Of a DNA stretch of 36,675 nt, positions 4,566-26,630 are shown piece after piece. Source of the stretch: Candidatus Bathyarchaeota archaeon. Its GTDB lineage: Archaea; Thermoproteota; Bathyarchaeia; TCS64. The DNA lies in assembly GCA_030601645.1 (NCBI GenBank), contig JAUWBQ010000003.1, positions 1 to 36,675 on the forward strand, read 5' to 3'. The position numbers were made by a program, and so were the translations under genes. How positions within the stretch are numbered: the first letter of the stretch is position 1; each line of letters starts with the position of its first letter. Below the pieces are notes generated by a model that was not told the DNA's origin, did no database searches, and saw only the letters and a program-made list of their open reading frames with translations.

Positions 4566-5594
4566 TTACCTCCGGAAGGATTCGGCCACTTCCTCGAGGA
4601 AGAGACGGATATCCTTCGCGGCTTTCCTACAGTTATATTGTTCGATGTGTTTACGGATGATTTCTCGCTCCTTTATTTTTTGCTCTGGGCTGAAGTTCCC
4701 CCATTCGATGGTTTTGCGTACCATTTCACCGGAGGTTTTGCAGCGATATTTTTTCGGGTACAGTTTATCTGCGCCCAGGTAGTTGTTGAGGAGTGGGTAC
4801 CCGCCGCTCGCGCAGACCTCGGCCATGCTCAAGCCAAAGCTCTCACGCCAGCTTGTACACCAGTACAGATCAGCGGTCTTGGCAAAGTTAGCCCACATAT
4901 CCGGAGGGAAGTTCTCGGTTTTCAGAAATACTCTCCCAGATGGAAAATCAAGTCGATCAATGAGATCCTTGCAGGTAAAAATATATTCGACCCCTTCTTC
5001 TGAGGGAGGCTCCCAAGATCCGATGAGCGTCATTTTCCAGGGTTTATCTCCGTCGAGCTGGATGAGATCGTAGAATTGCTGTAGTGCTTCGTAGACGCGT
5101 TTTGTCGGTCGGATAATACTGGCATGAGTTACGATATGGTATTCGGGGATGGGTAGTGCTATAGGGGTGAAGGTTTTGAGGTCAACCCCGAGGCTTTTAA
5201 TCAGGATTTTTTTAGGAAGTCGAGGCAGAGGTTTGTCGGGATAAATAATACTCCAGTCGGCCCGAAGCTTTAGTAGTACCGGATGATTGGAATCTTGAAT
5301 GATCAAACCGGCGATATTACGCCAATCCACAAAATAATGGTTAAACACATCGATTCCATGGCAGAATGCAACGAGGGGTTTACCGAGTTCATTGATCTGT
5401 GTAATTTCGAGGTTCTGCGCCTGAAGCCATTCAAGATAAGCCACATCACACCATTCTAATAATTTGACGGTGCTGATCCAGCTGATTGTTTCATTGGAAT
5501 TGAGGCTCCATATTTTGACTGTGTGATATTTGCTTAATTCCTCAAGAATAAAATGAGAGAAGTTTCTATTCCGTGAGAAGAAGGCGATGTTCAT
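4566..5594 (-). CDS. GT4-like glycosyltransferase, copy A, 342 aa
   Basis: Starts MNIAFFSRNRNFSHF, a typical GT-B first strand. It carries an EX7E-type motif at Glu251-Glu259 (WRESFGLSMAE), the usual nucleotide-sugar site of GT4 enzymes, and a conserved FCHGID at residues 77-82. It lacks a signal peptide and membrane segment, so it should be cytosolic. It is a close paralogue of the gene at 32582-33622: same length, start and motifs, with long near-identical DNA runs around the catalytic motif. It follows the fibre gene and a T-tract, and has its own TATA-like box about 25 bases ahead of the ATG. Confidence 0.85.
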   Translation of the reverse strand: MNIAFFSRNRNFSHFILEELSKYHTVKIWSLNSNETISWISTVKLLEWCDVAYLEWLQAQNLEITQINELGKPLVAFCHGIDVFNHYFVDWRNIAGLIIQDSNHPVLLKLRADWSIIYPDKPLPRLPKKILIKSLGVDLKTFTPIALPIPEYHIVTHASIIRPTKRVYEALQQFYDLIQLDGDKPWKMTLIGSWEPPSEEGVEYIFTCKDLIDRLDFPSGRVFLKTENFPPDMWANFAKTADLYWCTSWRESFGLSMAEVCASGGYPLLNNYLGADKLYPKKYRCKTSGEMVRKTIEWGNFSPEQKIKEREIIRKHIEQYNCRKAAKDIRLFLEEVAESFRR

Positions 5595-5642: not shown

Positions 5643-7166
5643 TTATGCGATTATACTCATGTCCTGGTAGACATCGACAGATAATCCCTTTGACATAAAG
5701 TCTTTATCTATCCTGAAATGCCCCGAAAGCTCCACGGGAACGCCGACATGTCTGACGACAAAACCACAGAGCAGCTCCTCATCATCTTTGTGCCGGACAA
5801 TGAACTTACCGAGCAGTGTCTCTGAATCCTTGTGCTGAGCGACGAATTTCCCGAGCAGTGTTTTGGAGTCCTTGTGCTGGGCTATGAACTTACCGAGCAG
5901 CGTCTTGTAGTCTGCTTGCTGAGCGATAAACTTACCGAGCAGTGTCTTGTAGTCTGCTTGCTGGGCGACGAATTTCCCGAGTAGATTTTCAGTTACCTGG
6001 CCATCAAAGCTTGCCTTCAGCGTCTTGTAATCTGCTTGCTGGACGATGAATTTCCCGAGCAGTGTCTTGGAATCCTTATGCCGGACGATGAAGAAGCAGT
6101 GGGGGTCAGATATCCCGTGTTTTTGCTTGACGATGAACTTACCGAGCAGCGTCTCGTAGTCTGCTTGCTGGACGATGAACTCTGCGAGCAGCGTCTTTGA
6201 ATCCTTATGCTGGGCAGTGAATTTCCCGAGCAGTGTTTTGGAGTCCTTGTGCTGGACAATGAACTCACCGAGTAGCGTCTTGTAGTCTGCTTGCCGGACG
6301 ATGAACTCACCGAGTAGCGTCTTGTAGTCGGCATGCTGAGCGATGAATTTTCCGAGCAATGTCACAGGAACGCCGGTGTGCCTTGCCTCGAATTCTCCGA
6401 GTAGCTCTTTATTATCCGCCTGTTGTGAGATGAATTTTCCGAGAAGATTCTCAGTTACCTGGCCGTCGAAAGCCGCTTTCAGCTGTTCTTCATCCGCCTG
6501 TTGCGAGATAAATTCTCCGAGCAGCTCCTCTGAACCTTGACCGACTTCGAAGCCTGCCTTGAGATCCTCATATGATTCTGGGTCATCCATGTCCTGGATG
6601 TAGCCTGAGATCTCATCGGCGTCTCCGCTGCCGTTGCTTTGGGGGGCCATAACGTAGGTAATGGCATATGCTGCCTGCAGTGTGAGGGTAAGTGTGGCAA
6701 CGAGGGTTGTCCGCCCCGAGTCTGAGTAGATGTAGAGTGTTACGTCCGCGCCTAGTTTGACGAAGGTGCAGTAGAATAGGGTATCCATGGCCGGGCTGTA
6801 AGTGGCGGCTGAGGAATAGACTGAGCCTCCGTTGGTTTCGATGATGGCGACGCGCGGGGCTGGCCCCGCTGCGATATTGTCTACCATCACAGAGATCTGA
6901 TTCTTATTGCCGGCTCGGTTTGCTTCCCAGTCGTCGAGGTCCTGCACGTATGATACGAGGGCGACGCTGCGGTCTCCCGCTGTTGGATCGGCGGCGTCTA
7001 TGTAGAATTCGAATTCCTGGTTGAAGTCGGATAAAGCCTTGACGATGGCCTTGTATAGGTAGACGTCTGCATCGTCGCCGCGGAGGGACATGAATGTGGA
7101 TCTTGTGTCGATCTGCGTTAGCCGCCCGGGAGTATCTACCTCCGTCCATGAGGTGAAGTCCTGCAT
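5643..7166 (-). CDS. Fibre-like protein with LamG-like N-terminus and 14-residue repeats, 507 aa
   Basis: Residues 1-205 form a beta-rich head resembling concanavalin/LamG-type folds (alternating strands; VTLYIYSDSGRTTLVATLTL). Residues about 208-480 are some twenty tandem units of the TLLGKFIAQHKDSK type with occasional LKASFDGQVTEN units, and a short C-terminal cap follows. There is no signal peptide or membrane segment. ATG at 7166 overlaps the upstream stop as TAATG, so translation is probably coupled to the virion gene before it. Likely a receptor-binding or decoration fibre. It is paralogous to the truncated gene at 1-2106, which has a different N-terminal head on the same repeat stalk. 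Confidence 0.8.
   Translation of the reverse strand: MQDFTSWTEVDTPGRLTQIDTRSTFMSLRGDDADVYLYKAIVKALSDFNQEFEFYIDAADPTAGDRSVALVSYVQDLDDWEANRAGNKNQISVMVDNIAAGPAPRVAIIETNGGSVYSSAATYSPAMDTLFYCTFVKLGADVTLYIYSDSGRTTLVATLTLTLQAAYAITYVMAPQSNGSGDADEISGYIQDMDDPESYEDLKAGFEVGQGSEELLGEFISQQADEEQLKAAFDGQVTENLLGKFISQQADNKELLGEFEARHTGVPVTLLGKFIAQHADYKTLLGEFIVRQADYKTLLGEFIVQHKDSKTLLGKFTAQHKDSKTLLAEFIVQQADYETLLGKFIVKQKHGISDPHCFFIVRHKDSKTLLGKFIVQQADYKTLKASFDGQVTENLLGKFVAQQADYKTLLGKFIAQQADYKTLLGKFIAQHKDSKTLLGKFVAQHKDSETLLGKFIVRHKDDEELLCGFVVRHVGVPVELSGHFRIDKDFMSKGLSVDVYQDMSIIA
5727..6545 (-). repeat. 42-bp tandem repeat array inside the 507-aa fibre gene
   Basis: About twenty 42-bp units with occasional 39-bp units stay in frame throughout and encode 14-residue stalk repeats. 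Unit sequences are shared with the array at 1-917, including the unusual unit coding for ISDPHCFFIVRHK (about 6080-6130 here and 110-160 there). Such arrays can change unit number by recombination. Confidence 0.85.
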
Positions 7167-9256: not shown

Positions 9257-10288
9257 TCAGAACGTAAACGTTGGAGTTGCCCATGCACCTGATGTAATCT
9301 GACGTACGGCGCCGGCACCTCGGTGCACGACGGCCATGTCGAACCAGTGGCTATAGTAGGATTCCGACAGCGGGTAGTCGCTGTAGGGGCCCTGCCATAG
9401 TTTGAGGCCTCGAGCTTTCGCGTTTACAGGGTTCCTTATGGTGATCGGCTTGATCCTGCTTTCAATGGCCAGTAGATAGCCGGCAGGTATCCAGTCGTCC
9501 TGGATAAGGGTGAAGCCCTGGAATTGTTTTATGACTTCGAAGCCGCCTTTCGCCACTGCCTCGGTGATACTTGTGGGGGTCATCGCGGTTGTCCAGCCTG
9601 CGAGGTTCTCGCATTCCTCGACTTGCTCCAGGTTCATGAAGAGGAACAGCGAGCCGGAATATCCGTGCTGCCTGATCTCCCTCTTAATCGCTGAGAAGTC
9701 GCTGAGCGCGATGTTAAGTGCACCTGAAGTATCGTAGTGATTATGAGTCAAGCCAAAAGTGTTGCCTTTCCAGTTGGGTGGAGCACGCATACTGGCGTTC
9801 TCCATGTTAGCGTCCCACCATCCGATGGACCGCGATCCCGTGCCGGGGGTCAAGCATCTGAACATGAACCGCTTGGCTAAGAGTCGCTGGTCGGCGCGGA
9901 GCGCCTCACCCTGCGTCTCCCTGAGTTCGTCGACTGTGCTCATCTGGATTGCTCTCTTGGTATAAGCATAGCCGAGTTCGAACTCGTCGAGAGGCACGCT
10001 GATTTCCATGGCTCTTAGTTTCTGCCAGTCTTCTAGGAAGCCTTCAGATGCTCTTACGAACTCCATGTTCCTTTGCCAGACGCGAACGTTTTCCTTGGTG
10101 GTCTCCCTGCAGAACCGGGACATAAGGCCCCATTCGACTTCATTGTAGACCTGTACACCTTCCTGGAACTCCTTGTACAGCATGCGAGTGTCGACATCAT
10201 CATAGGTGAAGAGTCCCTCGATGGTGAGGGGCTTCTCTACACGTAGACTGCCTTGACTTGCCGATAGGCTAGGATCTTCATATGACAT
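9257..10288 (-). CDS. Major capsid protein, HK97-like fold, 343 aa
   Basis: Length, position and composition fit an HK97-fold capsid protein: it follows scaffold and decoration genes and ends at a terminator. Visible features are a charged helical N-terminal region (about 30-130) like an N-arm plus spine helix, and a middle segment with a DFSAIKREIRQHGYSG helix and FLFMNLEQVEECENL. A late beta-rich part contains GFTLIQDDWIPAGYLLAI and PITIRNPV, the pattern by which capsid proteins describe the substrate-adding loop and A-domain. No clear cleavage site for removal of an N-terminal scaffold is visible. Called by context and pattern, not by a search. Confidence 0.75.
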   Translation of the reverse strand: MSYEDPSLSASQGSLRVEKPLTIEGLFTYDDVDTRMLYKEFQEGVQVYNEVEWGLMSRFCRETTKENVRVWQRNMEFVRASEGFLEDWQKLRAMEISVPLDEFELGYAYTKRAIQMSTVDELRETQGEALRADQRLLAKRFMFRCLTPGTGSRSIGWWDANMENASMRAPPNWKGNTFGLTHNHYDTSGALNIALSDFSAIKREIRQHGYSGSLFLFMNLEQVEECENLAGWTTAMTPTSITEAVAKGGFEVIKQFQGFTLIQDDWIPAGYLLAIESRIKPITIRNPVNAKARGLKLWQGPYSDYPLSESYYSHWFDMAVVHRGAGAVRQITSGAWATPTFTF

Positions 10289-10297
10289 TCATATCAC

Positions 10298-10693
10298 CTA
10301 GCTGTGCGCTCCGCCGTTCTGCGCTGGAATCGGTACGAAGAGGAAGACCATGTTAGCCGCGTAAGCAAAGCCACAACAGACACCGTCGGTTGCGAGGGTT
10401 GTCGAAGGAGCGCTGCCTCCAGTTTCATCTCCCGTGTATACCATGTTACCGATGGTCTGAGTTGTCTCCACTTCCATCCGGCATGTGGTTACGATGGTCA
10501 GCGGATCGCCTTCCGCGACGGTGAATAAGGCCCATCCGTGGACAATGTCGTATTTAACCTCGTCGATGTTCCATGCCTTTCCGCTGGTGTCGACCCAGAC
10601 GCTGTGGCCTATCGTGATGGCTTCTCCTGCCTCGGCTTTGATGGTTGTCCGCATATCGAACATCTTGATTCCGCGGGCTACTAATGTTGCCAT
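10298..10693 (-). CDS. Capsid decoration protein (DUF2190/gpD-like), 131 aa
   Basis: Small Ala/Thr/Val-rich beta protein with typical decoration-protein order: an early strand and turn (AEAGEAITIGHSVWVD), a middle VHGWALFTVAEGDPLTIV, and a C-terminal GVCCGFAYAANMVFLFVPI. Families such as DUF2190 use this layout to cap HK97 capsids. The gene lies immediately upstream of the major capsid gene (9-base gap) and overlaps the scaffold stop by one base, the usual scaffold-decoration-capsid order. Expected as trimers on the outer capsid surface. Confidence 0.7.
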   Translation of the reverse strand: MATLVARGIKMFDMRTTIKAEAGEAITIGHSVWVDTSGKAWNIDEVKYDIVHGWALFTVAEGDPLTIVTTCRMEVETTQTIGNMVYTGDETGGSAPSTTLATDGVCCGFAYAANMVFLFVPIPAQNGGAHS

Positions 10694-11559
10694 CAGTTAT
10701 TCATCTCCTTTTGCCAGGGAAGCTTGTTCTTGTCAGCCTTATCCTGGATCAAGCTGTCGAGTCCGTGCAAACCAATTAGCTCCATTTTTCGCTCAGGTGT
10801 GAGGCCGGTGCCTACGGCGCCTCCGGGCTTGCCGGATTCTAGGTGTCCCACATCTTGGTGAGAGGAGAATTTCTGGGTTTTCTCGAAGAATTCGAGAAGC
10901 TCGCCCTGATCCTCGTCATTGAGTTTGGCCGCTAGTTTGATGACCATGTCTCTCTGGATCGGTGCAAGGTGCTTGTCTTGGATCAGAGCTTCCACTTTCG
11001 CGGATACTCCGTCAAGTTCCTTCTCTTTCTCGAGCTTCGAGAGGCGTTCCTGTAGGTCGGTGATGAGATCGTCTTTCTCATCCTTTTTCTTCTTCTTCCC
11101 CTCGTCGTCGTCGTCGTCGTCGTCACCGTTGACTTTCTTTGCGAGCGCCTTGGCGAGCTCCTCTACCTCGGCGATCTCCTCGTCTTTAGGAGCTGGCTCA
11201 GGATACTTTTTCTTGAACTCTTCACCGCATTCCTTGAGAGATTTACCTTCGCCCAGGCATTCCTTCATGAAGTCCTTGTAGGAGACGTCTTTTCCATCGT
11301 CATCGCCGTCACCGTCACCTTCTTCCTTGCCTTTCAGCAAGACCTTGATGGCGTCATAAAGTTCGGCGTTGGACATCTCGTCTTTGATTCCCATGTCTTC
11401 TAGAACCTTGGCGTAGTCCTCGGCTTCGAGCTTTTCCTTCAAGAATGTTAGTACGGCTTTCATCTTCTGCTCTTTATCGGGAGAGTCTTCTCCCCCTGTT
11501 TCAGCATCAAGTGTTTCAAAGTTTACGATCGGGTTATCATTATCTTCTGGTTTAGACAA
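10693..11559 (-). CDS. Scaffold-like acidic coiled-coil protein, 288 aa
   Basis: Very acidic and lysine-rich helical protein with no membrane segment. It has a run of seven Asp (near residues 146-152), followed by KKKKK, then a coiled coil around residues 160-185 (ITDLQERLSKLEKEKELDGV) and a basic C-terminal tail (DKNKLPWQKEMNN). This is the expected make-up of an internal scaffolding protein, which shapes the procapsid and is removed by the prohead protease. It starts with TTG at 11559, about 35 bases after a TATA-like TTATAA, and opens the capsid operon. Confidence 0.7.
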   Translation of the reverse strand: MSKPEDNDNPIVNFETLDAETGGEDSPDKEQKMKAVLTFLKEKLEAEDYAKVLEDMGIKDEMSNAELYDAIKVLLKGKEEGDGDGDDDGKDVSYKDFMKECLGEGKSLKECGEEFKKKYPEPAPKDEEIAEVEELAKALAKKVNGDDDDDDDEGKKKKKDEKDDLITDLQERLSKLEKEKELDGVSAKVEALIQDKHLAPIQRDMVIKLAAKLNDEDQGELLEFFEKTQKFSSHQDVGHLESGKPGGAVGTGLTPERKMELIGLHGLDSLIQDKADKNKLPWQKEMNN

Positions 11560-12420: not shown

Positions 12421-12933
12421 TTATTCAGGTCTCCACTGGTAAAAGGGAACATCCTCCATGGTGAAAACGGGATCCTCGTCGATGGTGTCAATCCATATCC
12501 GATCGAGCCCCTGGGCGGAGAGATAGAATTCCAGTATTTGCATCATCATACCTTCCCAGTATTCCATAGCTGACTCGTTCGTGGTGAGGATCTTAACGTC
12601 AACAGGTGCGACTTTTACTATATATCTTGCCCGGGGGCCAAAGACATTCCTAGCATACAGGCTCGCCACGACCCCGTAGGTCGTCGCCCGTCTGATGGCC
12701 ATGGGGGTTTTACTGATGTCAGTCCAGCTCACATATTGTCCTATCTCGTTTGCTATCAGCCAAGTTTTAATATCCTCCATCACACCAATGATAATTTCTT
12801 CAAGGAAGCTATCGGAAATCCTAGCTTCACTCAATTCTACGACACCATTCACCCATCGACGGTTGGTCCAAAAAGGATATGACCGGACATTAAAATAGGC
12901 TAGAAGCCTCACGCTACCGTCGTAATCAACCAC
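12421..12933 (-). CDS. Putative head-completion or connector protein, 170 aa
   Basis: GTG start at 12933 overlaps the end of the giant gene by 8 bases, so translation is probably coupled. The protein is mixed alpha/beta: a helical region (EEIIIGVMEDIKTWLIANEI, 46-65), RRATTYGVVASLYARNVFG in the middle, and an acidic Trp-containing C-terminus. Its place after portal and protease, and the repeated helix-turn pattern, are what head-tail connectors show, but I see no diagnostic motif. It ends tail-to-tail with the winged-helix gene with no spacer. Confidence 0.55.
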   Translation of the reverse strand: MVDYDGSVRLLAYFNVRSYPFWTNRRWVNGVVELSEARISDSFLEEIIIGVMEDIKTWLIANEIGQYVSWTDISKTPMAIRRATTYGVVASLYARNVFGPRARYIVKVAPVDVKILTTNESAMEYWEGMMMQILEFYLSAQGLDRIWIDTIDEDPVFTMEDVPFYQWRPE

Positions 12934-15900
12934 CCTCGATCAATTCCGCATCGTGAATATAGGCCCCCGCTATTTTATCCGCCCTGACCTCCTTCGCTGG
13001 TTCGAACCGTTTCAGAATTCGAGGATGATAAACCCAGACATCCGGTCCCTCGAGGACCGCCCATTCCTTATCAGACAGCCCATGCTTGAGTTTCTTTGCC
13101 TCCATCAACGACATCTTCTCGGGGAATCCCTCAACATAAAGTCCGTGGGCTAATCCATCACAGCCTAGAAGTATGGCCTGCTTCGCATATTCACTGTATG
13201 GCTTCGAACGAATGAGCACTTTAACCTCGTTGGAGATGAGGCCCTTTACGATATGCTCAGGGAGGACAGCTAGGGGATTACTTCCACCTAAGCCGATCTG
13301 GGCTCCATCGAAGAGAGCCTGGGCATTGGGCGCCATTTCTTTAAGTTCGTCATTCAGACCCTCATGGGTTTTACCGACGTGGCCTATCTGCGTGAAGAAG
13401 ATCTTGGGGATATCGGCTTCTTGGGCCCATTTAATCTGATCCTCCATAGAGGCATGGCCAGGGCGTATGCCCCGACGTAATGAAGCGCCGTCACCGATGA
13501 AGATATCCACCCCTTTCAGGAGGGTTTCATGGTTCGGGATAGAAAGTACATCACTACAATGCCATACGTTTCTATTCCCTAGCTTGATTTTGAAACCGAG
13601 AGCATCGGGATCTCCTGGCTTCGCGTGCTTAACAGCTGCGCCCATGACTTCGAACTGTCCTGCCTTGAAGGTTTCCCCGGGCTTGATGACATATCGCTTG
13701 AAATTGTAGATCTTATCGAATTTTCCTTTCTGACCGCTGAGAGCCCGATAATGCTTCCTGAGGTAGGCCCATACTTCCTTCGTGGCAAATACGATCGGCT
13801 TCAAGGCTCTGAGCTCATGGAGACCACCAATTACATCCTCATGGATGTGCTCAAGGAGAACGAAATTGGGCTTTACTTTCCGGTCGCCTACCATCCCGAT
13901 GATTCCTTTTGGAGCGTTGATGAGAAGATTATCATCTCCTATGGTAAATAGGGTGGCCGTGTAATTGCGTCGGCTCTTTCCTCCAGCTTTGTATTCCTTA
14001 CATTGTGGACTTTCCTCACGGCCTTCCTTGCAGATATCGGTGAATGCTCCCGTGCCTAGGGCGGTTATGGCCACACGTCCTCCCAATTCCTTAACTTCCC
14101 CATCCTTGAGCTTGCGGAGGGCCCTGGCCTCAGCGTAATCGCGCCGAGGGATACCATACCGTTTCATCCAGTTTTCCACTGTGGAGCGGGGGATCCCTGT
14201 TTCGGTTGAGATCTCCTGGGTGCTCTTTGTCAGATCGTAATAGCTATGTTGCAGGTATTGATCTATCGTCATGCCGAATTTGTAGACTTTCCCGTCGAGG
14301 TCAGCTATGGTACCCATCCTCGCGTCTATTGGGTGGCAGGTCGGACAGGCGCCTTTTGGAACGACGGAGAGACCCTGGCAGACTCCGCCGATTACATGGC
14401 TGTGCTGATGTTCTGCATCCCATACTGTCTCAGGTATGACTTCGATGCTGAAGGCTCCAAGCGTCTTGTTCAAGATGAGTTGCATGGCCATGGGATGCCA
14501 GATTACAGCTTCAACGTGGCCCCAGCCCGTGTTCTCATCATACCATCGTTTATGGACGAAGCCTACGACATCGCCTTTAAGCTCCCCATGGAGCACGACC
14601 ACGGGCTGCCGGTACATCGAGGGCCAGAAGGCCTTGATCCCCTGCTTCGTGAAGAAGCTGGGCTCAGCATCCATAGGGATTACTTCACCTGGTTTGATTG
14701 CGGGCCCTCGTATCAGGAGGATTCCGTCTTTCTCCGTCACGTGGAGATCGTTTGTTCCACAGGAGAGAACAGCTCGAGAGGAAAGGAGTAATGCCTTTTT
14801 CTCAGCGGGGAGCTCGGTCTTCTGTAAAGTCCATGTCTCACCGCTTCGAACCAGGACATAGGATCCTTCAAGAGTTTTACCATGGAAACGGAGCATCAAA
14901 CGGTTATGGAAATCCTCAAGGATTCTGATTCGTCCGTAATCACTCGTGTCGAATTCAGTCTTGATCTTCTTGACACGGCTTGCAGAATGCTTCGGTGCAA
15001 GTTCACCTGTGGTTGGAATCAACTCCTTCAGGTCTGCATCAGTCCGACGCCGTGCAGTGGCGCCTGCCTCCTTGAGGGGATCTGTGTCTTTACCGAAGTC
15101 AAAGGCATCATGGATTTTTGAGCCATCATGGATTATCAGCCAATACCTCGTTACGGGGAGGCCACGCCGCACTTCGGGTCCTTTATGCCATACCCGCTTC
15201 ACGGCGAATTGGAGGCCGGCTTCAAGTTTAATCGGCACTTTCTTGGCTTTAATCTCTTTAACGAGGCCATCTCTCACCGCCTTGGCGTTTTTCGCCCTCC
15301 AATACTGACGATTTCGAGGGATCTGACTCCTGACGTATTCGGGGAGGGCGGATACGCCTTTGGGCGGCATCCACGGCTTGGCGACGGCCCTCGAGGAAAT
15401 TACATAAGGCAGGTCCTCGGGTTTGGTGAAGAATGTGAGCCATGCAAAAGATTCTTTGACATCCCAAGTCTTTCTCGTGGGGACTCTCCGCACGACCATC
15501 CGGCGCTTGCCTAGTTTCTCACCTTTCAGGAAGTATTCATGGAAGCTTCCTTTCTGTGCACCGAATTCGATGGTACCCCGGTCCATGATGATGAGGTGTC
15601 CTTCAAGTTCCTTGGTGGCCCCGACGGCGCCGGCGGGGATTTCCTCTTCATAGTCTAGCCAGACGGGGGACATTGGAGCTTTCTTCTGGGCTAGGATCTT
15701 CGCGTTGGGATCCTTCAGGTAGCCTTCAACTTCATCTTTCCATAATTCCTCGACGAGAGCTCGGATTTGCTTGGAGGAGAGTGTTTGAGTCCTCTTTTGA
15801 AGCGCCTTCCTCAGCGTCCGGCCATCCTTGGTTGAACTGAGTTTTTTCGAGAGATCTCCCAGGGACAGGTTCTTCAGATTCCCTTCAGTTATTCCGGCTT

Positions 15901-18900
15901 TGGCTCTGAGGGCAGGGTTTACCTTTCTCAGCAAGACGCGGATGAGGCTCTTGCCCACGTTCAAAGTCCAGCCAATCGCCTGGCTTTTACTGATCGTCAT
16001 CCTGAAATCCCCATGGACGCTTAACCCGCGAACATGGAGCTGCAGGGTGAACCTCTGTGGAGTCTCAGGGTACACCATGTACGGGTTCTCCCTGAGGCGC
16101 ATTACCTTCTTGAGAGGGACAATGGCACCACAGGACAGTTTCATACCGGGTATGGAGGACGACCGGATACTCTTGAAGAATGAGGCTAACTCCCGGGTGT
16201 TGAGTCTCACTTCATCGGGCAGAGTAGTTTCTTGAAGGCTGATAGGTGGGAATAATATCTCACCGAGAGGAAGAGGCTGCTCCAGGGAGAAGTCTATTTC
16301 ATGCTCCATCATCTTCTCGAGAAGTTCTCTCTTCGTAGCAGTGCCGATGATCTCCGTGATCCCGAGATCTTTCAATTTAGAATAAACATCGTCGACATTC
16401 TTGAGATAGGCCCATTCTAACTTCTGTCCTCGAGGAGGAAGTTTTTTGATGTATTTCTTCTTCTGCTTCTCTGTAAGCGCATTCCACTTGTCGCGATCTC
16501 CGTCAAAGAAGTGTTCAATCGCCCTTTCTTCATCTGTTCTCGGGATTCCGGTGGTTAAGGCAATCCACGGAGCGTCACAGCAGGCAAGTGGAGAATAGAT
16601 ACCATACCTGGCAGCCACGAGGTAGGCAGATGCTCTCTGTTTCTTTTTTACCGTTTTACTGATAGTTTCGGCTGTCTGGACAGGGTCAGGACGGGTCTTG
16701 TCCTCTCTAATTTCAAGAACTTGGGGATGGAACCAATGGTAGGCGTGTTCTCCGATCTTCCGGATATCCTTCACGCTCACCCTGATGATATCCCCGACGC
16801 TGGCCTCTTTCTTCGTATTGAAGGTTTTACCGAGGACCGCATAGACCCGCCCCTTCCACTTCACGAAATCGTTGCTCGTGGAATCCAGCGGCGCAGGTTC
16901 TGCTGAACCCACCCCTCCAGGGGATGGACCAATAGCTCCGATGTAGTTGAAGGTGGTCCCCTTCTTGATGACTCCAACCACCAAAACATCGATCTCGAAG
17001 GCCGCCTTCATTTTACTCCATAAAGGCGTGCTCCCGGAGAGCCTGTACTTTGAGTCGGCCTGCTTGAACATGGCTCCCTCGCTCCCTGAAACCTTGGCGG
17101 CTTCACCGGCGAATTTGACCATCTGCTCCGCAGATGTAGCCCAGTTAAGTTTGTTTTCCCAGATATGGAACTTGAAATCAGAAGCGGATTTGGGCACATC
17201 TCTGACGGGGAACTCGAGTCCATGCAGCCTGCTTCGGCGTTCTTCATAGGGCTTGTTGTGGAGCTGCTCGCCATCGATCAGCAGCACGTCGAAGACATGG
17301 ATTGCCCACCGGCTATCGTCGACGGGGCCTTTGGCTCCCTTGGCGAATGCGGGGGCAGCCCCGACTCGGCCTAGGTTGGTGAACTCCTCATCATAGGGCG
17401 TAGCCTCACCATCGATCACATAGGACTTGGCAGCCGACCGCTTGATATCCGCGACTATACTGGGCAGCTGCTCCGTGATCTCATGGCCGGACTCCGTGAA
17501 GATTTTACCCTGATCCCCACCTTTATGCAGCTGCACCCTGAAGCCATCTACCTTCACCTCATTGGCCTGCTTGTTAGGGACTTTGAAGAGATCCTCGGCG
17601 AGATCTTCAACCGACTCGAGGCCAAAAACCTCCCTCTCGGAGTATCCCTTCTTAGTGGTTTTCATTTGAGCGAAGGGATAGAGAGCCTCGATCTGTTTGC
17701 GCTTCGTCATCAAACTGAAACGCTCATCAGCGGACAGGCCCTCCCAGCGACCTGAATCGACGAGGCTGCGGATTTTCGCGTCGGCAGCCTCCGCCAGTTT
17801 CAGCTTTTCACTTCTTTGATACATGAACCAATTAGAGCTACCATCGACAGGATATCCTGTGCTTCCAGGAATGAGGAAAAATGGTCCGTCTTCCTCTTTC
17901 AGGAAGTCTATAGTATCCCGCCTTCCATTAAAATAGAATACGGGAGCAATGCGAAGAGGGTCCTCCACGGAGAGCTTATTCATGAAGTGTCTGCGCTCCA
18001 CGGCCGTCTGGAAGATGTGTTCAGATTCTCGGTACCAAATGAGGTCTAAGATGTAGTAGCGGTATTTTCCACCTTCTTTTGTGAGGAAACCATCCAAAAC
18101 AAGAGTTTTAGGATCCTCAATGGCGAGGACGGCCTCCACAATATTATCGGGAATATCCACCTCATCTAAGCTTTCATCGAATGCGATGACCTGCGATTCC
18201 TTCCGGTGGACCATCATTCGGAGGCCCTTAGGCTCAACAACAAAATAACCGTCCTCGAGGAGCTCGCGAGGATCATCTATGAAATAGCTTGGAGTAGCAG
18301 GCTTTATGGGTGCCATTGGACTAATATGATACCTCGGCTCGAGTGGTTTCGGATTTTTGACAGGAACCGCCCAGAGCTCGTATACGGGGATGTGAGGACC
18401 ATGGGGGCCTCCTGGTTCCCAGAGGAGCTCCACGGATTCCCTCAGTTCCTCAGGTAGAGCCTCTAAAAATCGATGCTTATAACCTTCATTACGGGTAGCA
18501 TGGAAGAGAACATCGAGATCGCTACCTTCCTTCCCTGAAACCGAGCTCCCGACTAGGCTGATGAAACCTTCATCGAGTAGGAAGCTCTCCCTCTGTTTCA
18601 ACATTGCCTCGAGGTTGCCGCCGAGCTCCAGGGGCTCGGTCTTCATCGGTGATTTGTGGTTCCGCCCCGCGTCTAGGCCTCTGTTCTGGAATTCGTCTAC
18701 TATGAGATCGTGAAGCTTCACCAACTCCTTCTTCTCGAGGAATAATTTATTGCCTCGAGAGAGGGTCTTCTCCCACATATGCAGCCATCGGTGGTCGTCC
18801 AACACGACGGCATCCGGCTCCCCCTTCCAAACTCGTTTACCTGCGAGGGCGGCCTCAGCTTTCTCACGGTCCATCAACTCGAGGCCTAATAAATCCGTGG

Positions 18901-19072
18901 CCATAAGCTCCAGGCGGTATAGTGCATACCAAGCTTCTGGAGCGAACTGCATGAGGATGGGGTCCTGCCCCTCAATCTTCCGCTTAAGCCATGCGCAGAA
19001 AGCATCTGGATCCTTCTTGTCAGGATTCTTCCGCACGCAATCTGCATGATTCTTGTACTTGCCGAAGGGCAT
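12926..19072 (-). CDS. Giant multidomain protein: NTase, DNA ligase, LigD-type phosphoesterase, prohead protease, HTH and MBL fold (2048 aa)
   Basis: Domains in order. 1-36: phage-type motif beginning MPFGKYKNHADCV. 155-240: minimal nucleotidyltransferase, GSS then SDLDV (184-188). 255-420: degenerate ligase-like domain (PKGLR at 281-285, LDGF at 326-329). 470-795: ATP-dependent DNA ligase with motif I Lys507 in KVDGFR, DGE 554-556, EG 665-666, WSKMK 685-689, then OB fold. 1005-1200: LigD-type 3'-phosphoesterase with His1013, His1020, Asp1022, Arg1024, split by a helical insert. 1285-1420: a second, degenerate copy. 1455-1580: prohead protease (candidate His1495, Ser1542; ends VVPKGACPTC). 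1598-1655: HTH. 1663-1930: metallo-beta-lactamase fold (His1742, His1744, Asp1746; Val replaces the usual His at 1747). TAATG overlap with the portal. Domain calls are by motif; joint function is inferred. Confidence 0.85.
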   Translation of the reverse strand: MPFGKYKNHADCVRKNPDKKDPDAFCAWLKRKIEGQDPILMQFAPEAWYALYRLELMATDLLGLELMDREKAEAALAGKRVWKGEPDAVVLDDHRWLHMWEKTLSRGNKLFLEKKELVKLHDLIVDEFQNRGLDAGRNHKSPMKTEPLELGGNLEAMLKQRESFLLDEGFISLVGSSVSGKEGSDLDVLFHATRNEGYKHRFLEALPEELRESVELLWEPGGPHGPHIPVYELWAVPVKNPKPLEPRYHISPMAPIKPATPSYFIDDPRELLEDGYFVVEPKGLRMMVHRKESQVIAFDESLDEVDIPDNIVEAVLAIEDPKTLVLDGFLTKEGGKYRYYILDLIWYRESEHIFQTAVERRHFMNKLSVEDPLRIAPVFYFNGRRDTIDFLKEEDGPFFLIPGSTGYPVDGSSNWFMYQRSEKLKLAEAADAKIRSLVDSGRWEGLSADERFSLMTKRKQIEALYPFAQMKTTKKGYSEREVFGLESVEDLAEDLFKVPNKQANEVKVDGFRVQLHKGGDQGKIFTESGHEITEQLPSIVADIKRSAAKSYVIDGEATPYDEEFTNLGRVGAAPAFAKGAKGPVDDSRWAIHVFDVLLIDGEQLHNKPYEERRSRLHGLEFPVRDVPKSASDFKFHIWENKLNWATSAEQMVKFAGEAAKVSGSEGAMFKQADSKYRLSGSTPLWSKMKAAFEIDVLVVGVIKKGTTFNYIGAIGPSPGGVGSAEPAPLDSTSNDFVKWKGRVYAVLGKTFNTKKEASVGDIIRVSVKDIRKIGEHAYHWFHPQVLEIREDKTRPDPVQTAETISKTVKKKQRASAYLVAARYGIYSPLACCDAPWIALTTGIPRTDEERAIEHFFDGDRDKWNALTEKQKKKYIKKLPPRGQKLEWAYLKNVDDVYSKLKDLGITEIIGTATKRELLEKMMEHEIDFSLEQPLPLGEILFPPISLQETTLPDEVRLNTRELASFFKSIRSSSIPGMKLSCGAIVPLKKVMRLRENPYMVYPETPQRFTLQLHVRGLSVHGDFRMTISKSQAIGWTLNVGKSLIRVLLRKVNPALRAKAGITEGNLKNLSLGDLSKKLSSTKDGRTLRKALQKRTQTLSSKQIRALVEELWKDEVEGYLKDPNAKILAQKKAPMSPVWLDYEEEIPAGAVGATKELEGHLIIMDRGTIEFGAQKGSFHEYFLKGEKLGKRRMVVRRVPTRKTWDVKESFAWLTFFTKPEDLPYVISSRAVAKPWMPPKGVSALPEYVRSQIPRNRQYWRAKNAKAVRDGLVKEIKAKKVPIKLEAGLQFAVKRVWHKGPEVRRGLPVTRYWLIIHDGSKIHDAFDFGKDTDPLKEAGATARRRTDADLKELIPTTGELAPKHSASRVKKIKTEFDTSDYGRIRILEDFHNRLMLRFHGKTLEGSYVLVRSGETWTLQKTELPAEKKALLLSSRAVLSCGTNDLHVTEKDGILLIRGPAIKPGEVIPMDAEPSFFTKQGIKAFWPSMYRQPVVVLHGELKGDVVGFVHKRWYDENTGWGHVEAVIWHPMAMQLILNKTLGAFSIEVIPETVWDAEHQHSHVIGGVCQGLSVVPKGACPTCHPIDARMGTIADLDGKVYKFGMTIDQYLQHSYYDLTKSTQEISTETGIPRSTVENWMKRYGIPRRDYAEARALRKLKDGEVKELGGRVAITALGTGAFTDICKEGREESPQCKEYKAGGKSRRNYTATLFTIGDDNLLINAPKGIIGMVGDRKVKPNFVLLEHIHEDVIGGLHELRALKPIVFATKEVWAYLRKHYRALSGQKGKFDKIYNFKRYVIKPGETFKAGQFEVMGAAVKHAKPGDPDALGFKIKLGNRNVWHCSDVLSIPNHETLLKGVDIFIGDGASLRRGIRPGHASMEDQIKWAQEADIPKIFFTQIGHVGKTHEGLNDELKEMAPNAQALFDGAQIGLGGSNPLAVLPEHIVKGLISNEVKVLIRSKPYSEYAKQAILLGCDGLAHGLYVEGFPEKMSLMEAKKLKHGLSDKEWAVLEGPDVWVYHPRILKRFEPAKEVRADKIAGAYIHDAELIEGG

Positions 19073-20418
19073 TATTCTTCAACCTCCTCTTCCTTTTCTT
19101 CTCCTTCCGGAGGGAGTTTCGCAGTCTCTTTTAGCCTTTTCCGAACTTCGTCGCTAGGGGCGGGGAAGTGGAGCTCGGTTCTCACCCACGGTTCATCAGT
19201 GTAGACCAATCCCTTATCGAGGGCTGTGAAGATCTTCTGGAAGATGGCTGCTTGATCCAGCGTTGTCAGAGGGGCGAATGAGAGTTTGGGGTAGACGTCC
19301 ACGGACCAGTTGAGATCCGTGATGATTTGGAGCATATCATTCGTTACCCCGATTAGTTCGAGGCGGAAATCCTCGAAGCGCATCATCAACAGATCGAGCG
19401 GGACTTTAGAACTGTAGGTGCTCCCGCCTCCGGAGAAGATGGGTTCACCAATAAGCATCCTGCGGAGGATCATCTCGTCCTGGTATCGAATGTACCTCTC
19501 AAACGGCATCTCCGCACGTTTTGATTCGAGGACCTTAATATCTGTGGGATCCTTCTCGTCGCCTCTCCGTATCACGGCTTGGCTTCTGGCGAAAAGATGC
19601 TCGATCGCCTCTCCGATGGTGACCATATCCTTGAGGGTGGATGATATTCCGAGAAGGATTGGAGATCCGAAGCGTTCGTATGCTATGTTGGCGAACTTCA
19701 ACATCGCGTCTTTGATGAACCAGTTTTTATAGCAGCCCCGGAGGATGGATTTTCCATACCAGTTACCCCATTGTTTTTCATGGCTCCAGATGAGGGTGCG
19801 GTCGAGAGGAAGGGGGATTCGCTGCCCGCTGATTCGCTGTTCCACTTTAAGGAGGTTTCCGGGGGGGTCTGTGTAGAATACTATCTGTTCGGGGTTGAAA
19901 GTTTTCAGAGCATTGAGGCGCCGAGGCATCCAGAAATTCTTATAATCATCAAAGACAAGCTCGGTCGCAGTGAAGCCATAGGGGATGGCGAGCATCATTT
20001 GTTTCATGGCATCCCGAAAAGTAGGCCATCTCATGCGGTCAAGAGAGTCAGTCAGGGTTTTAACGATCTCCTCATCTTCGTGAACGATCTTCCACGGCTT
20101 CATCAAGACGCCCATTTGGATGATGTCAAAGCCAGCGATGACTTGAGCATCATAGTCGAGCATCTTCTTATACTCGTCAAAACCGATTTCTTCAGGATTG
20201 TAATCGCCTATGGTGAGGTTTGCCCAGGTTGTTGGCTTATAGACTCCGATATCCTCCGTGAGGCCTTTTACCTTCTGTTCGGAGCGCTGCAGTTTGAGTA
20301 TCATCCCCTCGATCTGGTCATCTATTTGACGGTAAAACGCCAGATCTTCGGGGGGCATCAGGAAATTGGATATCCTTCGTCGGATGGTTCTCATCCTCGG
20401 AGTTTGTTCTACTCCCAT
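19072..20418 (-). CDS. Portal protein, Mu gp29-like (DUF935 type), 448 aa
   Basis: Residues 147-157 (YGFTATELVFD) and 217-256 (WGNWYGKSILRGCYKNWF and onward, to RFGSPILLGI) match the signature of DUF935 portals, the phage Mu gp29 group. The C-terminus is a glutamate-rich tail (EEKEEEVEE), likely disordered. The product should form the dodecameric ring at one capsid vertex through which TerL pumps DNA. It overlaps the terL end by 10 bases and the giant gene by one base, giving the canonical terminase-portal-protease order. Length is close to the family norm. Confidence 0.85.
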   Translation of the reverse strand: MGVEQTPRMRTIRRRISNFLMPPEDLAFYRQIDDQIEGMILKLQRSEQKVKGLTEDIGVYKPTTWANLTIGDYNPEEIGFDEYKKMLDYDAQVIAGFDIIQMGVLMKPWKIVHEDEEIVKTLTDSLDRMRWPTFRDAMKQMMLAIPYGFTATELVFDDYKNFWMPRRLNALKTFNPEQIVFYTDPPGNLLKVEQRISGQRIPLPLDRTLIWSHEKQWGNWYGKSILRGCYKNWFIKDAMLKFANIAYERFGSPILLGISSTLKDMVTIGEAIEHLFARSQAVIRRGDEKDPTDIKVLESKRAEMPFERYIRYQDEMILRRMLIGEPIFSGGGSTYSSKVPLDLLMMRFEDFRLELIGVTNDMLQIITDLNWSVDVYPKLSFAPLTTLDQAAIFQKIFTALDKGLVYTDEPWVRTELHFPAPSDEVRKRLKETAKLPPEGEEKEEEVEE

Positions 20419-22064
20419 ATGTTCTTCCTCAAATCGCCTCTATTCTTCCAATTGGCAGGCATCCAACCTTTTTCTCCCGACTCAAACTTCTCCCAATCAT
20501 TAGCGCTGGGGGTGGAGACTGGTTGTACATTAGGCTGACCAGTTTCGGCTCCTTCATAGTAGCGTGGTTGCCATCCAGATAAAAGGCAGATGAAGGCGTC
20601 ACAGCAGTGGTCGTAACCTTTCTTCGGTTTACCATCCGTTCCTCGCTTCCATTTGAGCAGCTGTTTTTTTAGCAGTTGAAACTCGGGGGTATCAGGGATT
20701 ACAATCTTCCGCTTTGACAGCCAATAATATGCGATTCCAATCATCCACTCTTTGCCATAGGTCTGCCGCTGGAATGCACGGGAGACGACTCGGAAGCCGC
20801 GATCTCTGATCTCCTGATTCTGGAAGGCGCCGGATGCGTCGGCAAACCATTCGTTAATATCATAGGCGAAGGCGTCCTGTTCGGCTTGATCGGCCCAATC
20901 TGAGGGGCTTGTCCCGCTTCCAGCCACCATTTTTAGGATGGCAATCTTCCCTCCCAAGGCTCGGTATCCTTCAAGGAGGACTGTATCATGATCGAAGCCC
21001 CAGTCTATGCCCCCCTTGGAATCACCTTGGAACTTGAGCCCGTAGGAGAATGTCACCCAGGGTTTATCTTTTATTTCAACTTTATTGGCATCGATCGGTG
21101 TTCCATCGACTAAAAAGCCGGGATTATCAGGATCCTCGGGATTATAGGGGGTGCCATCGAGGAGGAAACCGGGGTTGTCGGGGTCTGGCGCGACGAAGGC
21201 CTCCCGGATGAAGGTGCGTGGGAAAACTCTGCCCGCCCGCTTCGGTAGGCCGCCGACGTACTGGGTATGGAACATATCATCACTGAGGAAGTAGGCTGCA
21301 CTTTCAGTATCCTCGAGGGCTGCTTTAGTCTGCAGGTGGGGGGAATCTTTAGCCTCCCATTCGATTTTGATCCACCCCTTTTTATGGAGAGGCTTACCTG
21401 GTTCACAGTCATCCAGGATATCGAGGAATGCATCGGTGTTCTCCTTTCCCTCTGTAGCGGTGCTGAGTAGGAACCGCATGGGTTTTTTACTGCTTCGGTT
21501 CATCGGCCATGCCTCCTCGACGATTTGATTGGGGATCAATACAAACTCGTCCATAGCCTGACCATCGGAGGTGGGGGCGTTGACCTGCCTCGAGGTGGCC
21601 GCGGTATACATGATCCAACCGCCAGCCTTGTATTCAGTGATCGTGGTCATAGGCGGCCGCACGAGGAAATTCGCTAAGAATTCTCTTTGTTCTCTGAATT
21701 CGGGGCCGGACGGTGAAAGGATGGCCTTACAATAACTATAGAGCCATTTCGCCTGAGCCTCTGAACCCGAAACGATGAAGAATCGATAAGTCTGATCTCT
21801 GAGTGTCAACCAGACGACGACAATGGCGACGAGGATCGTCTTACCTCCCTTACGGGGAGCCCGGATCGCAAAATATTTATGGCCATCTTGAACGAACTGG
21901 AGGAGCTTGATTTGCTGTAATGAAGCAAGTTTGAGGTCAAATAGCCGCTTGGGGACGTAGTGTTCTACGAAGTAGAATATGTTCTTCATTGCCTTTTCCC
22001 ATTTTCCTGCACCTCGTTTTTTCTGGACAAGGGAGAGGATGGGATCTTCTAATTCACTCGTCAA
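20409..22064 (-). CDS. terL: Terminase large subunit, 551 aa
   Basis: ATP-driven DNA packaging motor plus headful nuclease. Walker A is APRKGGKT (69-76), Walker B ends at MDEF (Asp172, Glu173), and a coupling motif STAT follows at about 201-204. The RNase H-like nuclease has Asp354 (GGIDWG), Asp409 (WFADASG) and Asp485/Asp489 (YDHCCDA). Between the two domains a 13-residue unit DPDNPGFLLDGTP is duplicated (294-306 and 311-323), which is unusual. TTG at 22064 is the start used. It lies upstream of and overlaps the portal gene, and is probably translated from the same transcript. Confidence 0.92.
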   Translation of the reverse strand: MTSELEDPILSLVQKKRGAGKWEKAMKNIFYFVEHYVPKRLFDLKLASLQQIKLLQFVQDGHKYFAIRAPRKGGKTILVAIVVVWLTLRDQTYRFFIVSGSEAQAKWLYSYCKAILSPSGPEFREQREFLANFLVRPPMTTITEYKAGGWIMYTAATSRQVNAPTSDGQAMDEFVLIPNQIVEEAWPMNRSSKKPMRFLLSTATEGKENTDAFLDILDDCEPGKPLHKKGWIKIEWEAKDSPHLQTKAALEDTESAAYFLSDDMFHTQYVGGLPKRAGRVFPRTFIREAFVAPDPDNPGFLLDGTPYNPEDPDNPGFLVDGTPIDANKVEIKDKPWVTFSYGLKFQGDSKGGIDWGFDHDTVLLEGYRALGGKIAILKMVAGSGTSPSDWADQAEQDAFAYDINEWFADASGAFQNQEIRDRGFRVVSRAFQRQTYGKEWMIGIAYYWLSKRKIVIPDTPEFQLLKKQLLKWKRGTDGKPKKGYDHCCDAFICLLSGWQPRYYEGAETGQPNVQPVSTPSANDWEKFESGEKGWMPANWKNRGDLRKNIWE

Positions 22065-25384: not shown

Positions 25385-25635
25385 AAAGGATTACCGATCC
25401 AGAATATATTGCCTGGCAGGCGATGGGGACTCTACCGCGGAATAAGAATTACTGGATCTACTTCAGCCCGGATAACCTGTACGCGGCTCTGGTGAACTCC
25501 ATAAACCAGGAGATAATATTCATCTCAGATCGAACTTCCGGGCATGAAATCTATAAATCTCCCAACTCGAGGAAGCATGCCCAGTTCTTCTATGCAATGA
25601 AGAAATCGGCATTCATTCCACGGAAAATAGTTTAG
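25381..25635 (+). CDS. Hypothetical protein, 84 aa
   Basis: Aromatic-rich alpha/beta protein (NKNYWIYFSPDNLYAALV) ending in basic residues, without cysteine or membrane segments. Last gene of the small plus-strand operon; it converges with radA and overlaps its end by four bases. Function not recognised. Confidence 0.6.
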   Translation: MKRITDPEYIAWQAMGTLPRNKNYWIYFSPDNLYAALVNSINQEIIFISDRTSGHEIYKSPNSRKHAQFFYAMKKSAFIPRKIV

Positions 25636-26630
25636 ACTTCTATTTCATCCCCGACGATCCCGAAACTTGAGATCCGAAAAGGAGTCTCACCATCAGGGAG
25701 GAAGGGACTTGCCACGATCTTCGCGATCCTGAGATTATCACGGCCTTTACGCAAGAAGACTCGTGTATGAACGGCATGACCGAGCACATGGCCGCCCGTA
25801 GCCGTCGGATATTGAGGCCCGCCATATGAATCAGGATGGGCTAATACTTGGTTTGTCACGACACCGGCCGCGTTAAATCCCATGCAGAGCCGCTTCAGTT
25901 TACTCAGATGCTGGTTCAGCTTTCCCTGACGTGGAGCTAGGACTTCCCTTCCAATGAACTCGCTACGGAAATGAGCCATCACACTGTCTACGATGATAAG
26001 CCGAACCCCATTTTCCTTAATTACCTCGTCAGCATTATCGAGGAGAACCACTTGATGCTCGCTAGTATAAGCTCCGGCATAGATAATCCGTTTCAAAACC
26101 TTCTTAGGATCAAGCTTGAGATGAGCGGCCATCTCAACGATTCTCCACGGCCTGAAGACATTTTCAGTATCGATGTAAAGACATGAACCATCCAAGCCCC
26201 CCTCTTCGACGGGGAGCTGTACAGTGACAGCGAGCTGCTGGCAGATCTGCGATTTCCCGGATCCGTACTCCCCATGGAATTCAGTTATACTTCCGGTCTC
26301 GAGGCCGCCCTCCAGCAGCTTGTCGAGAGAATTGCATCCCGTCGTCATCTTGGTTTTATCCTTGTACATTTCAGCCAGCACTGCGGCGGTGACGAATTTT
26401 ACCTCGAGACTCAGGCGCGCTGCTTTAATCACCTTGCCAGCCAAGGTTTCTCCGATTCCGGCCTCAATCAACTCTATTGTACTCGCCGTTGCGATTCCCT
26501 GAACCGTTCTGAAACCGGCTTCTCGCAGCTTGCCAGCGCCGGCTGGGCCCATGCCTGGAAGGTCTTCTATGGTTTGATACTTCGCCCGATAATATTCTCT
26601 GGGATCAGGTTTTTTCTCGTCCATTCTCAC
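25632..26630 (-). CDS. radA: RadA recombinase, 332 aa
   Basis: Archaeal Rad51/RadA strand-exchange ATPase, full length. Residues 18-65 are the helix-hairpin-helix DNA-binding domain (DLPGMGPAGAGKLREAGF). FVTA at 79-82 is the polymerisation motif. Walker A is GEYGSGKS (120-127) and Walker B is LIIVDS (211-216). The L2 region precedes GGHVLGHAVHTRVFLRKGR (279-297). All catalytic motifs look intact, so it is likely active. ATG at 26630 or 26624. Expected to promote recombination-dependent replication or repair of viral DNA; no DNA polymerase, helicase or primase accompanies it here. Confidence 0.93.
   Translation of the reverse strand: MRMDEKKPDPREYYRAKYQTIEDLPGMGPAGAGKLREAGFRTVQGIATASTIELIEAGIGETLAGKVIKAARLSLEVKFVTAAVLAEMYKDKTKMTTGCNSLDKLLEGGLETGSITEFHGEYGSGKSQICQQLAVTVQLPVEEGGLDGSCLYIDTENVFRPWRIVEMAAHLKLDPKKVLKRIIYAGAYTSEHQVVLLDNADEVIKENGVRLIIVDSVMAHFRSEFIGREVLAPRQGKLNQHLSKLKRLCMGFNAAGVVTNQVLAHPDSYGGPQYPTATGGHVLGHAVHTRVFLRKGRDNLRIAKIVASPFLPDGETPFRISSFGIVGDEIEV

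Follow-up and report, generated by a model that had tools for sequence, protein, structure and literature searches.

Background

The closest described parallels to the protein reported here come from phage P1 and from the polyvalent proteins of phages. DarB of P1, a protein of 251 kDa, is packed by means of its N-terminal 30 residues, which are enough for a reporter to enter the head (PMC9024508); the protease Pro cleaves DarA, as given in the parts of these papers used here (PMC9024508, PMC12810830). Polyvalent proteins are, according to the sections of Iyer et al. 2017 on which we draw (PMC5512222), scarce in archaea, almost all examples longer than 1,000 residues being bacterial, and the words "DNA ligase" do not occur in the main text of that paper. 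Two viruses also bear on what follows: ANMV-1, from methane-seep archaea, and Haloferax tailed virus 1 (HFTV1). Here we describe a gene in the contig JAUWBQ010000003.1 (assembly GCA_030601645.1, Candidatus Bathyarchaeota archaeon), which is likely that of a tailed-type virus with an archaeal host. All positions refer to the window, i.e. the whole stretch of 36,675 nucleotides that was analysed, and all the capsid-locus genes discussed lie on its minus strand. One open reading frame (ORF), uninterrupted from an ATG at 19072 to a stop at 12926, encodes 2,048 amino acids (aa) that unite an ATP-dependent DNA ligase, domains resembling the phosphoesterase (PE) of LigD and a domain resembling prohead proteases. 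The best reading of this fusion protein, in our opinion, is that of a DNA-repair payload (ligase plus PE), a new cargo for the kind of protein exemplified by P1 Dar and the polyvalent proteins.

Domains of the fusion protein

The fusion protein can be divided as follows (window positions, strand, residues, basis).

18953..19072, minus: aa 1-40, N-terminal head-protein tag (identity to HFTV1 gp17; 45 viral loci)
18632..18940, minus: aa 45-147, helical region (helices in the AlphaFold2 model)
18317..18631, minus: aa 148-252, nucleotidyltransferase (NTase)-like domain (motif and predicted topology)
17813..18316, minus: aa 253-420, degenerate second ligase adenylation domain (hhalign match to the ligase domain of the same family, P 2.6e-5)
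16997..17614, minus: aa 487-692, DNA ligase adenylation domain with K507 (Pfam DNA_ligase_A_M)
16637..16996, minus: aa 693-812, ligase OB domain (within an archaeal-ligase match, aa 489-811)
16118..16636, minus: aa 813-985, alpha/beta domain (AlphaFold2 model)
15209..16060, minus: aa 1005-1288, LigD-type phosphoesterase-like domain, PE1 (hhalign P 9.7e-7; conservation)
14753..15208, minus: aa 1289-1440, second PE-like domain, PE2 (hhalign P 1.1e-8; 3p43, E 0.011)
14273..14752, minus: aa 1441-1600, XkdF-related prohead-protease-like domain with H1495 and S1542 (BFVD, conservation, profile-profile comparison)
14081..14272, minus: aa 1601-1664, helix-turn-helix (HTH; phrog_7545, 1e-6; Pfam HTH_23, 0.0014, below cut-off)
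13283..14080, minus: aa 1665-1930, PhnP-like metallo-beta-lactamase (MBL)-fold domain with an incomplete metal motif (Lactamase_B_2)
12926..13282, minus: aa 1931-2048 and stop, C-terminal domain (accompanies the MBL domain in several other viruses)

An earlier note on this DNA, made from the letters alone, had claimed a single 2048-residue frame holding a small nucleotidyltransferase, an intact-looking ATP-dependent DNA ligase, LigD-type 3'-phosphoesterase domains, a prohead-protease domain with His1495 and Ser1542, an HTH and an MBL-fold domain. The analysis bears out the frame and each of these domains, with the HTH weak in Pfam, PE2 showing no catalytic motif and the protease a distant relation; for the nucleotidyltransferase there is a motif and a predicted topology and no database match.

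Pfam DNA_ligase_A_M covers aa 487-689 (E 5.8e-25), and the motif residues are K507 in KVDGFR, E556, E665-G666, K687 and K689, at the positions previously given. As in LigD, the adenylation domain and the OB domain of an ATP-dependent ligase are found with intact motifs. Conservation was counted in 43 aligned rows, namely the window protein and 42 homologs, with the partial P0040, P0041, P0045 and P0046 and the distant P0048 and P0049 left out. K507, D509, R512, E556, F594, E665, G666 and K689 are kept in all 40 ligase-bearing rows (window included), and G510 in 39. Ligase motif V is interrupted by inteins in P0030 and P0037 (before aa 686 of P0001), with the canonical Cys at the beginning and His-Asn/Ser at the end; three loci of distant members (L040, L062 and L068) show the same Cys-(Ile/Leu)-Thr-Gly-Gly-Ser start there. 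Because these residues are kept throughout and inteins have settled in motif V, a purely structural role of the ligase seems disfavoured. In L014, an intein-like stretch with LAGLIDADG immediately precedes the ligase match.

In the degenerate second ligase domain (aa 253-420) the catalytic Lys is absent from its expected place. The NTase-like domain contains G175-S176...D185-x-D187, which we take to be a nucleotidyltransferase motif and which is conserved in 42-43 of the 43 rows. The alpha/beta domain of aa 813-985, also conserved, is found between ligase and PE1 in many homologs; the whole-protein search, in which this segment was not searched alone, gave no Pfam match above cut-off for it.

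The resemblance to the LigD phosphoesterase emerges from profile-profile comparison (hhalign, with PE sequences from 30 genome loci), Pfam LigD_N scoring below its cut-off on the single sequence (E 0.022). In PE1 the relevant residues are H1013, H1020, D1022 and R1024, the H/H/D/R set being retained in 42-43 of 43 rows, together with HEY at 1178-1180. No catalytic motif was seen in PE2.

The protease domain has no Pfam match from the single sequence. Compared by hhalign with XkdF (Peptidase_S78_2), the window family alone gave P 0.0026 (probability 11.6%), the best of 12 unrelated controls giving 0.0056. With seven relatives from an iterated search added, P was 9e-7, and with 31 relatives 1.4e-6, while the best unrelated control reached 0.0039; in this expanded comparison L096 and L097 were removed from the XkdF set, and no overlap is listed between the profiles. 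(A score of P 3.7e-17 is not relied on, the iterated profile having shared one protein with the XkdF set.) The expanded alignment places His on His and Ser on Ser of XkdF: H1495 and S1542, conserved in 43/43 rows, fall on the conserved pair that is presumably catalytic there. Of the best 50 BFVD matches to the C-terminal model, 15 carry the name of a prohead, head or capsid maturation protease, with E 2.8e-5 at best; these matches concern the model as a whole, the matched part not being indicated. Two separate genes found with the window protease profile also match head-protease families in PHROGs, that of L040 (phrog_976, 0.0014, positions 72-198) and that of L165 (phrog_4523, "major head and protease protein", 1.2e-9; phrog_976, 3.3e-5). 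For seven others PHROGs returned no head-protease family: no family was matched by L053, L057 or L060, only a major head protein family by L050, and L066, L084 and L146 matched families of unknown or other function only. The unnamed phrog_36109 is common to the window protease domain (0.0035), L040 and L146. We think that the domain is probably a distant relative of XkdF, and we do not file it as a member of Peptidase_S78_2.

The first residues of the fusion protein, MPFGxYxxFxDCVxxN..DPxAyCAxIxrKIEG, provide a further link to the virus head. Residues 1-39 share 61.5% identity with the N-terminal residues of the scaffolding/protease protein gp17 of HFTV1, and a scan with the tag only yielded 45 viral loci (L129-L173, of which L129 has the same tag protein as HFTV1), where it opens an ORF in 29, is internal in 11 and lies in a broken frame in 5. 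We surveyed 30 proteins, 29 bearing the tag plus the gene behind the tag ORF of L165; the frame-broken L166-L169 and L172, short ORFs, the near-copies L136 and L171, and L146 and L149, known as ligase-PE loci, were left out. Among the best 25 of 57 PHROGs families were head maturation protease (phrog_976, n=4; phrog_80, n=3), major head protein (phrog_617, n=3), several without function and one DNA methyltransferase family with 2 members. Pfam gave DUF2213 (n=3), Peptidase_S78 (n=2), S78_2 (n=2) and Phage_capsid, Mu-like_Pro and Phage_Mu_F (n=1 each), and some of the 30 proteins matched function-less families or none of those named. The tag, of about 38 residues (MPFGxYxDFxDCVxxN..DPxAYCAxIxxxIEG), is common to head proteases, capsid proteins, one MuF protein and short stand-alone ORFs; it also stands on some PE genes (L043, L050, L060 and L069). 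By these matches it is a head-protein signature and, on the model of P1 DarB, it is predicted to target proheads.

Lactamase_B_2 matches the MBL domain with E 8.9e-16, and the fold is that of a PhnP-like hydrolase. The metal site is incomplete: HxHxDH is broken in 43/43 rows, with no His at the sixth position, 25 of them having HxHxD[VA] and the remaining 18 having lost HxHxD. The three ligase-less rows have all lost HxHxD, but so have 15 of the 40 ligase-bearing ones, and we therefore claim no link between the two losses. The Artemis-type end processor formerly suggested does not fit a PhnP-like domain with such a motif, only the broad MBL fold being common.

Relatives in other genomes and viruses

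The homolog search, whose scoring was confined to the 7,985 candidates with most words in common, found 48 other proteins, 38 of them (P0002-P0039) of 1,866-2,342 aa and with ligase. Because near-full-length homologs occur in other contigs, and XkdF fusions likewise, the possibility that the frame is an assembly chimera, named at the outset as a refuting condition, was rejected. The closest genome contig comes from a metagenome-assembled genome of Geothermarchaeota (66% identity, L076), and eight others come from Euryarchaeota, Methanosarcinales, Archaeoglobales (2), Methanophagales, Thermoprotei and Planctomycetota (2) assemblies.

A single-sequence scan of viral contigs found nothing. An IMG/VR scan with an alignment query found relatives of parts of the domain set in 73 viral contigs, with MBL, C-terminal, NTase, ligase, PE and protease modules in varied order, fused or in neighbouring genes. 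Record searches used 44 of these loci, near-copies and many short ones having been removed by hand and some near relatives remaining. A portal gene was found in 26 of the 44 with three portal models (PF04860 matched 21, 13 above the Pfam cut-off). In 24 of these 26 it is located less than 10 kb upstream in the same orientation (0.06-9.2 kb); G002 has it on the opposite strand, and in G013 it stands at the distant contig end. By random placement about 5.4 such records would be expected, and no more than 15 occurred in any of 200,000 simulations, in which records count as independent despite a few near relatives among them. XkdF scores above the Pfam cut-off in 11/44 records and shares an open frame with PE in 10, six of these frames also containing ligase and the other four belonging to records without a ligase match.

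Among 71 PE loci the protease is fused in 12 (2 without XkdF) and encoded by a same-strand gene in 25, 15 of them within about 0.5 kb. On a tree of the PE domain the fused or separate state of the protease changed at least five times by parsimony, with L027 labelled by its near-copy L006, 26 of 70 rows unlabelled and 18 of 67 inner branches poorly supported. A D12-type DNA adenine methyltransferase is fused to PE in L005, L024, L032 and P0049, three of these four also having XkdF and two having ligase; L005 has the methyltransferase together with ligase, PE and XkdF.

The capsid locus and other genes of the window

The neighbours of the fusion gene are these.

20409..22064, minus: terminase large subunit (phrog_2, 1.7e-19)
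19072..20418, minus: portal protein (Pfam Portal_Mu, 3.9e-39), sharing one base with the fusion start codon
12421-12933, minus: 170-aa gene, between the fusion gene and the scaffold-like gene
10693..11559, minus: scaffold-like protein (phrog_976, E 2.2e-5, profile positions 224-337 of 415, i.e. the C-terminal part)
9257..10288, minus: major head protein (phrog_3990, 7e-41)

The order 3' of the fusion gene is 170-aa gene, 85-aa ORF, scaffold-like gene, 131-aa gene and major head protein. The placement between portal and scaffold claimed earlier is therefore correct, the portal gene abutting and the 170-aa gene and 85-aa ORF preceding the scaffold-like gene. Since the scaffold-like gene matches positions 224-337 of phrog_976 and the L040 protease gene positions 72-198, the usual protease-scaffold protein appears to be split here, its protease half lying inside the fusion.

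Elsewhere the window encodes a RadA/Rad51-type recombinase (25632-26630, minus; Rad51, E 1e-79) and three glycosyltransferase-like genes (3398-4558, 4566-5594 and 32582-33622, minus), two of them adjacent and two recognised only below the Pfam cut-off. Two proteins (1-2106 and 5643-7166, minus) contain extended arrays of a 14-residue repeat, LLGKFIVQQADYKT-like, encoded by tandem repeats of 42 bases; they are perhaps tail or fibre proteins.

Proposed role and alternatives

We propose that the fusion protein is a virion-packaged, protease-processed polyvalent protein, whose ligase and PE kit is ejected with the genome to mend or join DNA ends and nicks. Packaging, cleavage, delivery and the reaction performed are all inferred, and we give this proposal about an even chance. 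The protein would enter the prohead through its N-terminal tag, and at head maturation the internal protease would cut the chain, separating the N-terminal kit, roughly aa 1-1440, from the portion with the HTH and MBL domains. The ligase, PE1 and the NTase-like domain would then remain with the DNA and, once ejected, work on packaged ends, on nicks or on breaks inflicted by the host; the inactive ligase copy, PE2, the HTH and the often degenerate MBL domain may serve as DNA-binding or structural partners. More tentatively, and with a probability that we would put well short of even, archaeal (and some bacterial) tailed viruses may carry in their heads a protease-released end-joining kit, with which they would rejoin their own entering genome independently of Ku. 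Such a self-sufficient set would consist of ligase, nucleotidyltransferase and a LigD-type phosphoesterase peculiar to viruses.

Several points weigh against the proposal. The activity of PE1 is unsure because two positions that we take to be H84 and Y88 of the LigD PE are replaced, with W at the latter. The protease lies inside the chain, whereas it is C-terminal in XkdF relatives. No likeness of the protease domain to HFTV1 gp17 was found, the resemblance being confined to the tag: profile-profile comparison of gp17 gave 0.044 and 0.12 with the window protease domain and 0.54 with XkdF, and gp17 (P0053) has no PHROGs or Pfam protease match. The kit seems dispensable in some relatives, since three homologs (P0043, P0044 and P0047) have no ligase core and 4 of the 44 viral records no ligase match. 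No portal was found in 18/44 records. Of the 19/44 records in which the terminase was found, no more than 9 have it upstream in the same orientation at a distance of up to about 10 kb. No protease was found in 34/71 PE loci, XkdF being known only for the 44 records. Finally, Ku is found in 0/44 records, many of which are fragments.

An assembly-time kit, sealing nicks or fixing ends during packaging in the prohead and then degraded by the protease instead of being delivered, is in our view unlikely, although the portal-scaffold position, the protease fusion and the head tag fit a prohead role as well as ejection; the variety of payload (D12 methyltransferase with ligase, PE and XkdF in L005) better suits protection of incoming DNA. 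Somewhat less probable is an unpackaged protein, whose fusion merely couples expression, the protease freeing repair enzymes for replication in the infected cell. Phage ligases often serve replication, and several relatives have ligase and PE as genes apart from the protease. However, whether fused or split, these genes lie near the portal in 24 of 26 portal-bearing records, many adjoin or carry head-protease domains, and some PE genes bear the head tag. We hold it slightly more improbable again that the payload is one of counter-defence, in which ligase and PE would mend breaks made by host nucleases and the MBL domain (of the PhnP/Apyc1 fold) would degrade a signalling cyclic nucleotide: its metal motif is incomplete in every row, and HxHxD is lost in 18. 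That dead enzymes are retained as internal scaffold mass is hardly credible, despite the degeneracy of one ligase copy and PE2 and the decay of the MBL domain in many homologs, as the other ligase copy keeps K507, E556, E665 and K689 in 40/40 rows and PE1 its H/H/D/R set in 42-43 of 43.

If the repair payload is real, DNA repair joins antirestriction and host takeover among the tasks of head-carried proteins of tailed viruses, and this class of proteins extends to archaeal viruses, where it has been reported to be rare. The means by which uncultured archaeal viruses close their genomes, or protect them, when they enter a cell would become testable, and the conserved N-terminal tag may target proteins to proheads across many viruses.

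Comparison with known systems

The earlier note had seen here a LigD-style end-joining set. Bacterial and archaeal LigD and stand-alone PE proteins do share a ligase core and a PE-fold domain with the fusion protein, and the interpretation is partly supported. Against it speak the PhnP-like MBL domain and two negative searches: Pfam gave no LigD polymerase/primase match in the whole protein, aa 813-985 not having been searched alone, and Ku matched none of the 25 ORFs that were scanned in the window. We do not class the fusion protein as LigD, Ku having been found in none of the 44 records and no polymerase match having been obtained; it differs also by a half-changed PE active site and by its head-protease fusion. 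Mycobacteriophage Corndog resembles the proposed system in that end joining circularises phage ends, as told in the parts of the source used here; a phage Ku is employed there, whereas none was found in the 44 records of relatives of the fusion. Corndog end joining reportedly relies on host LigD.

The two viruses named at the beginning each share a portion of the fusion. AJP62006 of ANMV-1, an 866-aa protein annotated as ATP-dependent DNA ligase, has NTase-like, ligase and PE modules and is encoded directly after the portal gene; the window protease, HTH and MBL profiles do not match it. (The ANMV-1 gene L001 1913-3193, KP703175.1, annotated "MutT-like phage hydrolase", is the portal protein; Phage_portal_3, 3.2e-22.) HFTV1 gp17, a P2 gpO-like scaffolding/protease protein, has the same N-terminal tag and lies between portal and capsid gene; it has 480 aa and no repair domains.

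Our literature search, which did not extend to preprints or to most subscription papers, brought up no account of a protein that joins ligase, PE and head protease. In the portions of the P1 papers considered here, the Dar system shares with the fusion the very large size of a protein and, as far as is predicted for the fusion, its packing in the head by an N-terminal stretch, the cutting of a Dar protein by a prohead protease and ejection along with the DNA; it differs by its antirestriction role and separate protease gene, and no ligase is mentioned in those portions. Polyvalent proteins, in the sections of PMC5512222 cited above, are likewise large and multidomain, belong to phages with portal and terminase, are predicted to be packed and injected, and in some cases have an assemblin-like peptidase, which is always C-terminal there and internal here. 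Like them, the fusion protein combines several unrelated catalytic-type domains in one chain and is encoded with terminase and portal genes, and it is in their company, and that of P1 Dar, that we think it is best placed.

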